NCBI RefSeq assembly: GCF_013391085.1
Contig: NZ_CP058334.1
Coordinates: forward strand, 1,240,001-1,304,000
DNA from: Natronomonas halophila
GTDB lineage: Archaea; Halobacteriota; Halobacteria; Halobacteriales; Haloarculaceae
Direction: 5' to 3'
DNA length: 64,000 nt
Made by a program: the position numbers and the translations under genes
Shown here: positions 16,461 through 38,551 of the stretch, piece after piece
Position numbering within the stretch: position 1 is the stretch's first letter
Layout: each line of letters opens with the position of its first letter
Notes under the pieces: model-generated
The model's database searches: none
Told to the model about the DNA's origin: nothing
The model's input: the letters and a program-made list of their open reading frames with translations, nothing else

Positions 16461-16991
16461 TCACACGTCGAACTCGACGCGGTCGCCTTCCTCGATGCCG
16501 CGGTCGGTCGTCCAGCCCTTGTTGACTTCGAGGACGTACTGGCCCTCACCGGAGTAGCGCTGGTCCTCACCGTCCTCGTTCGGCCCCGGTTTCGGCGCCT
16601 CGTGAATCGTCGTAATCGTCCCGTTCGGCGCGATGAAGACGATATCGATGCCGAAGGACATGTTCCGCATCACGTAGGTGCGTTCGGCCGAGCCGTCGTG
16701 GATGAAGAGCATGCCACGTTCCTCTGGCAACTCGTCGGTCTCGCTGAGTCCGACGTACCGCTTGGAGAAGGTATCGGCGACTGCGGCCGTAACGCTGCCG
16801 AGTTCCTCGCCCGTCTCGTCGTCGGTGACGACGACCTCGGTGTGGTTGTAGTCCCGCGATTCGTTGAAATCGGCGTCGGCGTCGTAGCCGCCGAGATACG
16901 GCGCGAGCATGCCGGTCGACAGCCCCAACAGGACGACCGCGAGGACGACGGCTACCAGCCCGAAGCCGACGCCAACCAACCGAGTGTTCAT
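16461..16991 (-). CDS. Membrane-anchored DUF192 protein
   Basis: This 176-residue protein has an N-terminal hydrophobic segment (residues 5-30) acting as signal or anchor, then a DUF192 domain. That domain shows FSKRYVGLSETDELPEERGMLFIHD, YVMRNMSFGIDIVFI and VLEVNKGWTTDRGIEEGDRVEF. DUF192 domains are small beta folds found outside the cytoplasm in many prokaryotes, with no proven activity. It is complete. A 10-bp inverted repeat lies upstream in the gap to tRNA-Val. Confidence 0.85.
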   Translation of the reverse strand: MNTRLVGVGFGLVAVVLAVVLLGLSTGMLAPYLGGYDADADFNESRDYNHTEVVVTDDETGEELGSVTAAVADTFSKRYVGLSETDELPEERGMLFIHDGSAERTYVMRNMSFGIDIVFIAPNGTITTIHEAPKPGPNEDGEDQRYSGEGQYVLEVNKGWTTDRGIEEGDRVEFDV

Positions 16992-17013
16992 CGCCGAAAC
17001 GAACGGCCCGCGA

Positions 17014-17053
17014 GCGGGTAAGCGTTCCGTCGCGGAAAGTAAGGCTTACCCGC
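17014..17053. repeat. 10-bp inverted repeat upstream of tRNA-Val
   Basis: GCGGGTAAGC (17014-17023) and GCTTACCCGC (17044-17053) enclose a smaller TTCCG/CGGAA hairpin. The pair lies between the divergently oriented DUF192 gene and tRNA-Val, and could be an operator or part of both promoters. Confidence 0.5.
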
Positions 17054-17076
17054 ACGGGCGCTCTCCCGTCGGATGC

Positions 17077-17150
17077 GGGCGCGTGGTCTAGTTGGCTATG
17101 ACGCGGCCCTTACAAGGCCGAGATCGGCGGTTCGAACCCGCCCGCGCCCA
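17077..17150 (+). tRNA. tRNA-Val (TAC anticodon)
   Basis: A 74-nt cloverleaf has acceptor GGGCGCG/CGCGCCC with discriminator A, anticodon stem GGCCC/GGGCC-type pairing around CTTACAA (anticodon TAC), and T-arm GGCGGTTCGAACCCGCC. There is no intron and no encoded CCA. The last 23 nt are repeated exactly twice downstream. Confidence 0.95.
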
Positions 17151-17394
17151 TCCTGCGGCGAGCTATACCCCGAGCCGCAGGTGTGGAGAAGGGTTCGAAG
17201 CCCGAAAGACGCAGCGGCGAGCGAAGCGAGCCGACCGGCTTTCCTCGGTTCGAACCCGCCCGCGCCCATACTCCCGTGGCGAACAACTCCGTGAGCCACG
17301 GGTGTACGCCCGGCAGGTTCGCACCCTGGAAGTCGCGCACAACGAGCGAAGCGAGTGAGCACGTCTCCCTCCGGTTCGAACCCGCCCGCGCCCA
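17128..17394 (+). repeat. Tandem tRNA-Val tail array (three copies of a 23-mer)
   Basis: The 3' terminal 23 nt of tRNA-Val (CGGTTCGAACCCGCCCGCGCCCA) occurs at 17128-17150 (in the gene), 17246-17268 and 17372-17394. Each spacer starts with an 8-bp stem and 14-nt loop (17152-17181 and 17273-17302). The stems differ at two base pairs with both partners changed. Each spacer ends with CGAGCGAAGCGAG (17218-17230 and 17343-17355), 15-16 nt before the tail copy. No full pseudo-tRNA is present. Integration scars or a tRNA-tail-bearing element are the main explanations. Confidence 0.85.
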
Positions 17395-17500
17395 CTTCTC
17401 TGACGGAACATCGCGAACAGTGCTGGCCCCGCGGCCGACCCACGCAGGGCGGCGGTTTTCGAAACCCTTTTTGATAGCCTCGGCGTCGGTGGGCATGCAA

Positions 17501-17574
17501 GCCGCCTTAGCTCAGATTGGGAGAGCACTCGACTGAAGATCGAGCTGTCCCCGGTTCAAATCCGGGAGGCGGCA
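17501..17574 (+). tRNA. tRNA-Phe (GAA anticodon)
   Basis: A 74-nt cloverleaf has acceptor GCCGCCT/AGGCGGC with discriminator A, anticodon loop CTGAAGA (GAA), and T-arm CCCCGGTTCAAATCCGGG. There is no intron and no encoded CCA. The 3' end recurs imperfectly at 17670-17688. Confidence 0.95.
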
Positions 17575-17699
17575 TTTTCCTGCGACCGAAGGGAGCAGTG
17601 AAAACGCCCCCGACCGCGATTTGAATGTCGGGAGTCGCAGCCGAGCGAAGCGAGGACCGTCTCCCGGAAGTTCATCCGGGAGGCGGCATACTTCTCTGA
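17575..17699 (+). repeat. tRNA-Phe tail repeat unit
   Basis: Downstream of tRNA-Phe there is a 7-bp stem (CTGCGAC 17580-17586 / GTCGCAG 17634-17640), then CGAGCGAAGCGAG (17642-17654), then 15 nt, then a shortened copy of the tRNA-Phe end (GTTCATCCGGGAGGCGGCA, 17670-17688, lacking two A of the T-loop). ACTTCTCTGA at 17690-17699 closes it. The same 10-mer closes the Val array at 17394-17403. The layout parallels the Val units. Confidence 0.75.
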
Positions 17700-17820
17700 A
17701 GCCGCTCGCTGGGCGTAGCGAACGCAGCAGGTGGCGCGAATAGTCCTGACCGGCCAACGGAGCTGGAAGTGCTCCACCCGAACGCCTATATGGGCAGGTG
17801 AACCCCACAACGAAGAAGAC

Positions 17821-18462
17821 ATGGCCGGAGACGAGATCGGGTTTCATCCAGTCGTGGCCGCGCTGTACGACCCGGTGCAGTGGTACTTCGAGCGGGTACA
17901 GGCGCCCGAACACCGGGCATATCTGGCGGCGGGGCTCGACGGTCGGGTGCTGGAAATCGGCGTGGGGACGGGCGCGATGCTGCCCTACTACGAAGGGGGA
18001 ATCGAGTCGGGGGCCGATATCCACGGCGTCGAACCGGACCCGACGATGTGGCAACGCGCTCGCGAGAAAATCGCCGACAGCACCGTCGATATGCAACTGG
18101 TCAGTGCGCGCGGGGAGTCGCTTCCCTACGAGGACGACTCGTTCGACTACGTCGTCGAATGCGGGGTGTTCTGTTCGGTTCCGTCGATACCGCCGATGCT
18201 GTCGGAGGTCGCCCGCGTGCTACGAGACGGAGGCGAGTTCCGATTTCTCGACCACGTCCGTTCCGATGGGCTGGTCGGGCGAAGCCAAGACGCGTTGACG
18301 CCGCTGTGGCGTCGAATCGGCGGAAACTGCCATCTGAACCGTCGAGTCCGGCCGCTGCTCGAGACGTCCGACCGGCTGACGCTGGAGGAGTTCGACCGTC
18401 CGACGATCGGCTACTGGCCAATCCGGAAGTTCGCTCGCGGCACCGCGACACTCAGCGGCTGA
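17821..18462 (+). CDS. Class I SAM-dependent methyltransferase
   Basis: This 213-residue Rossmann-fold methyltransferase has motif I VLEIGVGTGAMLPYY, motif II acidic residues HGVEPDPTMW, post-motif ARGESLPYEDDSFDYVVECGVFCSV and the late motif VLRDGGEFRFLDHVRSDG. This is a UbiE/Methyltransf_11-type small-molecule or lipid methylase; the acceptor is unknown. The start at 17821 was chosen since the upstream extension runs into the tRNA repeat region. Confidence 0.85.
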   Translation: MAGDEIGFHPVVAALYDPVQWYFERVQAPEHRAYLAAGLDGRVLEIGVGTGAMLPYYEGGIESGADIHGVEPDPTMWQRAREKIADSTVDMQLVSARGESLPYEDDSFDYVVECGVFCSVPSIPPMLSEVARVLRDGGEFRFLDHVRSDGLVGRSQDALTPLWRRIGGNCHLNRRVRPLLETSDRLTLEEFDRPTIGYWPIRKFARGTATLSG

Positions 18463-38434: not shown

Positions 38435-38551
38435 CGCCTGAGCGTTTCTAACGACTGCTGGCAGTAATTCTACGATACCATTTTATTAGACTCGCCGGGA
38501 CGCCTGCGAGCGAAGCAAGCAGGGCTAGGCGAACGTAGCGAAGTGAAGGAA

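Follow-up and report, generated by a model that had tools for sequence, protein, structure and literature searches.

Introduction

tRNA genes are the main landing sites of mobile DNA in archaea and bacteria, and several described systems place repeated or inverted sequences next to them. In Escherichia coli, the tyrT/argT loci display tandem terminal repeats of tRNA tails together with the rtT RNA (Rfam RF00391); this arrangement is transcribed and is known from one or two bacterial loci. The attC sites of integrons are built from short inverted boxes around a spacer, an inner stem and a terminal hairpin that varies between sites, and their R box reads GTTRRRY. Archaeal integrative elements of the tyrosine recombinase type use tRNA genes (PMC8371274), while the PATEs, SMRs and MITEs of haloarchaea are small non-coding hairpin or palindrome elements that are moved in trans (PMC3119063). 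Finally, casposases insert at the 3' end of tRNA genes with duplication of the target; casposon duplications measure 14-15 bp, and in M. mazei their overlap with the tRNA is confined to the last 4 bp of the gene (PMC6977970).

Here we analysed a stretch of 64,000 nt (hereafter the window) that is part of the 3.21-Mb chromosome of the haloarchaeon Natronomonas halophila, and in which a tRNA-Val and a tRNA-Phe gene are followed by small structured units ending in a copy of the tRNA tail. An Rfam scan of positions 16900-17900 (cmscan, E up to 5) returned nothing besides tRNA, with no RtT match, and a description of the family was not found in the open-access literature. As far as these two sources show, the family appears to be undescribed.

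Results

Architecture of the units behind tRNA-Val and tRNA-Phe

Both arrays lie on the forward strand. The first starts with tRNA-Val(TAC) (17077-17150; ARAGORN, Rfam RF00005), whose tail at 17130-17150 is the source of the copies, and continues with unit 1 (118 nt, 17151-17268) and unit 2 (126 nt, 17269-17394). The second comprises tRNA-Phe(GAA) (17501-17574; ARAGORN, Rfam) and a unit of 114 nt (17575-17688). All three units are matched by R1, a covariance model built from nine units (17184-17268, 81.3 bits; 17308-17394, 89.8 bits; 17610-17688, 53.9 bits). Behind the tRNA, which is left intact, a unit displays a first hairpin (hairpin 1), an inverted T-arm, a core of the form GGAAG.CGC...cap...CGTCTTCC and a tail copy corresponding to nucleotides ~53-73 of the host tRNA. 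Units measure about 90-170 nt and are protein-free, and the spacers of 90-150 nt have no gene inside. The tail copy is usually 21-22 nt long and ends exactly at the discriminator base, and the T-loop box GTTCRAAT is conserved in unit alignments.

An earlier note on this DNA had described exact repeats of a 23-nt Val tail, CGGTTCGAACCCGCCCGCGCCCA, and these were recovered at 17128-17150, 17246-17268 and 17372-17394; the 21-nt core of the repeat forms tail copy 1 (17248-17268), ending at the discriminator base, and tail copy 2 (17374-17394). The further Phe tail copy was likewise found at 17670-17688, with 19 nt, 2 nt short, and a T-loop that lacks two A. Hairpin 1 occupies 17152-17181 in unit 1 (loop flanked by GA/GA; RNA fold z -3.0), 17273-17302 in unit 2 (z -4.7) and 17575-17604 in the Phe unit (TTTTCCTGC-GACCGAAGGGA-GCAGTGAAAA, by RNA fold). 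As the same note had proposed, both Val hairpins pair over 8 bp around a 14-nt loop and are distinguished by two compensated pairs, and the 13-mer CGAGCGAAGCGAG is located at 17218-17230 (C-GA-G-CGAAG-C-GA-G), 17343-17355 and 17642-17654, each time 15-16 nt upstream of the tail copy. What this first reading missed is the inverted T-arm copy in each spacer, at 17191-17202 (GGGTTCGAAGCC) and 17312-17326 (GGCAGGTTCGCACCC) in the Val units, according to fold and R1 structure, and at 17617-17627 (CGATTTGAATG) in the Phe unit, according to sequence and alignment. The inverted T-arm is predicted to pair with the following tail copy, so that spacer and tail together form a single long hairpin whose tip is the 13-mer. 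The lowest-energy fold of the Phe unit deviates from this plan, which there rests on the alignment.

The closing sequence ACTTCTCTGA is present at 17394-17403 and 17690-17699, as first noticed; it ends both arrays here and is not a regular feature of other arrays. On the reverse strand, long ORFs run antisense across the tRNAs and units (17096-17822, e.g. 17110-17496) and would give repeated GFEP-like peptides if translated. They are likely spurious and constitute an annotation hazard.

Stem covariation and the possibility of an RNA

Pairing matters in the stems of the units, as their covariation in the R1 structure exceeds both shuffled and slid controls. Hairpin 1 folds well as RNA (z -2.8 to -4.7). 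Single-sequence folding of the core hairpin in the Val units is not clearly better than that of shuffles, and the structural claim for the core rests for this reason on comparison. Besides, the GA-cap motif is always found on the transcript strand of the tRNA, and the nucleotide at position 74, directly behind the tail copies, proved to be T or C 60 times out of 67, as it usually is behind tRNAs, which also suits RNA 3' processing. Covariation, the folding of hairpin 1, the sense-strand asymmetry of the motif and the tRNA-like T/C all speak for the main rival explanation, in which the units would be structured-RNA genes, co-transcribed with the tRNA and excised by a tRNA 3'-end enzyme that reads the tail copy, comparable to rtT RNA in the tyrT operon of E. 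coli. We nevertheless regard it as unlikely, though it deserves serious weight, because presence and number of units are patchy at orthologous tRNAs, cores are interchangeable, many copies are decayed, and the Rfam matches are to tRNA only. In addition, the free stems, which are under no tRNA constraint, show little wobble preference, with 23 GU against 12 AC (tallied from the cells of a pair table), compared with 24 against 1 in the tRNA acceptor stems of the same loci. The low GU excess, together with patchy presence and a DNA-type loop, leans towards the units being a DNA element rather than an RNA. The earlier note had left the choice between a small element and an RNA; its idea of a small structured element that belongs to tRNA 3' ends is supported, and the choice itself leans towards DNA.

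Strict copying of the anti-tail from its target was only partly backed, with a complementarity to the own tail of 10.6 versus 9.1 in permutations (sd 0.2), which is strong in only about one fifth of units. As a marker of unit-bearing tRNAs, hairpin 1 showed only a moderate enrichment under a strict rule (31/69 vs 33/133).

The 13-mer is a generic hairpin cap

The earlier note had described the 13-mer as fixed, and its 5 occurrences in the window, against 0.01 expected, are not due to chance. However, CGAGCGAAGCGAG has 53 exact copies in the genome, mostly away from tRNAs and mostly at the tips of unrelated hairpins, and other units use other caps. The 13-mer is a generic, exchangeable, genome-wide hairpin cap, and it was discarded as a family signature. 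The spacer plan itself is not due to chance either, since 8 further tRNA genes of this genome have it downstream, and it is shared by units elsewhere. The cap follows the pattern C-GA-N-CG-n-AG-N'-GA-G, and in the unit cores that display it N and N' are always complementary (GC 31, AT 21, CG 3, mismatches 0); this pattern resembles the very stable GNA-loop mini-hairpin with flanking sheared G-A pairs.

Two further repeated families were encountered in this genome. One, located around the 13-mer and away from tRNAs, has the form TAGTCGCTnnGCnGGC - cap - GCCnGCnnAGCGACCGCCAG...GAGGGCTTTC and shows evident compensatory changes (loci L019, L024, L033, L038, L039, L044, L046 and L054); no Rfam match was obtained at L039, the one locus tested. 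The other is structured as AGCATCCGCGAG...GCGGTTC...multiple capped hairpins...GTGTCTTTTTCATCGAAGTTTTTGC, with a T-rich end (L009, L016, L017, L020, L021, L035, L036 and L040), and had no Rfam match in the loci tested.

Units are linked to the 3' tail of their own tRNA

In the named set, a tRNA lies at most 700 nt upstream of 77 of 85 units, and 7 of the other 8 start less than 500 nt from the locus edge. When all 153 distinct units are considered, a tRNA directly precedes 140 of them, and the hosts represent more than 20 isoacceptors. The tail copy is identical to the tail of its own tRNA at 21/21 positions in 93 of these 140, the tails of other tRNAs matching at a median of 14/21, and the identity stops at the discriminator base. 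We then considered sites at which, among units of the same isoacceptor, the tRNA tail of a genome departs from the isoacceptor consensus: out of 105 such informative sites, the copy agrees with its own tRNA at 100, with the consensus at 3 and with neither at 2.

At tRNA-Gln of Haloarcula (L228, L233), the tRNA and unit 1 of H. rara have one version of the tail, and unit 2 has the H. amylolytica version; this distal unit therefore records an older tail of the tRNA. Across arrays, such a polarity with older copies placed distally is weak, the tail identity being 20.5, 19.9 and 20.8 of 21 at ranks 1, 2 and 3, respectively. Separately, tRNA-Leu(gag) of Halorubrum (L328-L332) is followed in five species by a different, well conserved trailer made of a hairpin and a short CCCACGCA tail copy.

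Distribution in this genome and across Halobacteriales

We surveyed the downstream flank of every tRNA match of the genome. Units with a tail copy, one or two each, stand behind 10 of the 39 tRNA genes recognised by ARAGORN, namely Val(tac), Phe, Lys(ctt), Lys(ttt), Leu(taa), Leu(tag), Arg(cct), Thr(cgt), which has a reduced core, Gly(tcc) and Tyr. Degenerate remnants are seen behind some further tRNAs. At tRNA-Ala(ggc) (L057) and tRNA-Val(cac) (L068), the degenerate units have been reduced to an acceptor-tail copy of ~12 nt together with its inverted partner. In the window, the remnant CCCGGCGAGTC (38489-38499, reverse strand) behind tRNA-Ala(cgc) matches the tail of tRNA-Ala(ggc) and not that of the tRNA that it follows, which may be a vestige of movement from one tRNA-Ala gene to another.

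Building and searching a covariance model had been suggested from the start, and R1 yielded 15 matches in this genome and about 830 across 60 relatives, 56 of which have matches, so that the plan recurs across haloarchaea. When the search was extended to a sample of the whole phylum, 51 of the 53 Halobacteriales genomes and none of 242 outside the order had matches, unlisted genomes without a match being assigned to the outside group. Hosts include Halorubrum, Haloferax, Haloarcula, Halorientalis, Halosimplex and Natronomonas, the upper end of the copy number is reached in genome G059 with 36 units, and many copies are decayed. The model did not match bacterial contigs or 13 viral contigs that had matched the DNA pattern, and the R1 search found no unit in phages and plasmids. 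Of the places in which the earlier note proposed to look for the plan, other tRNA genes throughout the order thus proved to have it, and viruses and plasmids did not; with none found among viral contigs, phages and plasmids, virus or plasmid carriers were dropped as candidates.

Exchange of cores and presence or absence of units

Near-identical cores were found at different tRNAs and in different species and genera. The cores of a Cys (L208) and an Arg (L126) unit differ at 2 of 51 nt, and the core of the Lys(ctt) unit in L174 is identical over 52 nt to that of Lys(ttt) in the present genome. A core shares its tRNA with its nearest neighbour in 23 of 106 cases, with 8 expected by shuffling, which points to some vertical inheritance and mostly free exchange of cores. 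At tRNA-Leu(tag), Halorubrum halodurans and H. rubrum have the downstream gene and hairpin 1 in common, while the core is swapped exactly between the inverted and the direct T-arm and one species carries an extra unit. More generally, presence and number of units vary at orthologous tRNAs of relatives, and tandem stacking occurs.

A clean comparison was provided by tRNA-Val. In genome G010 the flank TGCGATTCTGCGAGGAACGA directly follows the tRNA, while in G013, of the same genus, exactly one unit with a 22-nt tail copy is placed between position 73 of the tRNA and the same flank. Both G013 tail copies share a substitution that is absent from G010 and the outgroup, and at the same tRNA of the outgroup, G006, stands an older unit that has decayed but whose hairpin 1 is homologous. 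Because of this older unit, the pair is explained more simply by a clean loss in G010; as the one clean empty/filled pair, it more likely represents a loss than a gain, which counts against mobility. Judging from this comparison, units come or go whole and leave the tRNA intact.

The G010/G013/G006 trio also fits precise loss by tail-tail recombination within an old, vertically inherited tandem duplication of tRNA tails and trailer, with no mobile element involved, that is kept uniform by gene conversion with the tRNA and between loci, in which the hairpins would be template-switching by-products of a GC-rich genome. Homogenisation of tail copies with the tRNA, core exchange at short T-arm repeats and the genome-wide abundance of hairpins with the same cap also agree with such a history. 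We consider it rather improbable, since near-identical 50-nt cores at unrelated tRNAs of different genera, and a constant plan that is restricted to the 3' ends of more than 20 isoacceptors, are hard to obtain without directed insertion.

Integrase elements at the same tRNAs and candidate enzymes

Tail duplication is a hallmark of integrase elements, and such elements do occupy the same tRNAs, so that the units might be ordinary scars of integrated plasmids or viruses, i.e. attachment-site duplications that persist once the interior has been deleted. One classical integrase element, of 8 kb, is inserted at tRNA-Gly of G038; its repeat covers about 50 nt of the tRNA and takes in the anticodon arm, and two hairpin units are found on its far side. 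Similarly, an integrase gene stands behind tRNA-Leu(tag) of H. yunnanense and H. coriense, while a partial tRNA copy and a unit are found elsewhere, about 20 kb away on the same contig in H. coriense. The repeats of real integrase elements, of about 50 nt or more, come with genes and without the hairpin plan; units are located beyond such elements and were absent from viral contigs, phages and plasmids, and no integrase gene was found between or beside the unit repeats. Simple integrase scars were ruled out on these grounds, in line with the earlier view that they are insufficient, and the explanation as a whole is very improbable.

A casposon- or CRISPR-like insertion by a Cas1-type enzyme, with target-site duplication at tRNA 3' ends, has in its favour that casposases choose this very target and duplicate it (PMC6977970). 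Here, however, the duplication covers 21-22 nt from the T-loop to position 73 instead of 14-15 bp (PMC6977970), and Cas1 (PF01867) had no match in this genome or in G059 with its 36 units, and this explanation is very improbable. The Y1 (HUH) transposase PF01797 is absent from the unit-rich genomes G059, G056, G010, G012 and G038. Neither Cas1 nor Y1 was thus retained as an obligate driver. A tyrosine recombinase (PF00589) was detected in all 37 of 37 genomes of good completeness, which is weak evidence since the family is ubiquitous. With Y1 and Cas1 absent from unit-rich genomes, a putative tyrosine recombinase acting at the T-loop is the most plausible mover.

Discussion

With moderate confidence, and from comparative sequence data, we propose that the units form a Halobacteriales family of non-autonomous hairpin elements that are targeted to tRNA 3' ends and moved in trans. 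They would have spread as non-autonomous mobile elements whose target is the universally conserved T-loop (GTTCRAAT). A trans-acting recombinase, most plausibly of the tyrosine type, whose archaeal representatives are known to use tRNA genes, would recognise the folded hairpin of inverted and direct T-arms, and the tail would be duplicated at insertion or homogenised with the tRNA later by gene conversion. A strict crossover at the T-loop would import the donor tail and break a non-cognate tRNA, and movement between tRNAs would consequently need tail duplication or later conversion. Recombination between tail copies would produce clean losses, and the short T-arm repeats would be the sites of core swaps. 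Inheritance is probably vertical to a large extent, given that nearest neighbours share their tRNA above chance.

A broader interpretation, which we put forward only tentatively, is that the units represent a new class of mobile DNA: gene-free hairpins of a single order that enter behind almost any tRNA via the T-loop, regenerate its tail and are read as folded single strands by a host recombinase, in other words a tRNA-borne analogue of integron cassettes. If true, a major unrecognised inhabitant of tRNA sites would be present in nearly every haloarchaeon, at up to three dozen sites. The units can alter how integrases find their targets and confuse tRNA annotation, and if transcribed they would constitute a set of tRNA-tail RNAs. 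They also raise a testable question, namely which enzyme moves or homogenises T-loop sequences.

Among the described systems, tyrT/rtT is similar in having tandem tRNA 3'-tail copies and spacers directly behind a tRNA gene. In contrast, the haloarchaeal units form a class-wide archaeal family that occurs at many isoacceptors and is characterised by an inverted T-arm hairpin and by cores that can be exchanged, and the RtT model does not match them. Integron attC sites share the inverted boxes, inner stem, variable terminal hairpin and tandem organisation, but the units carry no gene, and their alignments show a conserved GTTCRAAT instead of the R box GTTRRRY. A conserved palindrome also follows about half of the tRNA genes of the archaeon M. 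kandleri; it is short and fixed, without a tail copy, and reported to be specific to M. kandleri. Like tRNA-targeted integrative elements, the units use tRNA genes, copy the 3' part of the tRNA and leave it intact, while they differ in the lack of an integrase or any gene, in a repeat of only ~53-73, in the conserved hairpin and in the occurrence of one family at many tRNAs. PATEs and SMRs do not duplicate their target and have no tie to tRNAs (PMC3119063), and the Y1 transposase of an IS200/IS605-type PATE is absent from several unit-rich genomes. Casposons are set apart by duplications of 14-15 bp, as compared with the 21-22 nt (~53-73) of the units. Altogether, as judged by sequence comparison, the units depart from casposons, PATEs, attC sites and integrase scars and behave like a non-autonomous, tRNA-targeted element.
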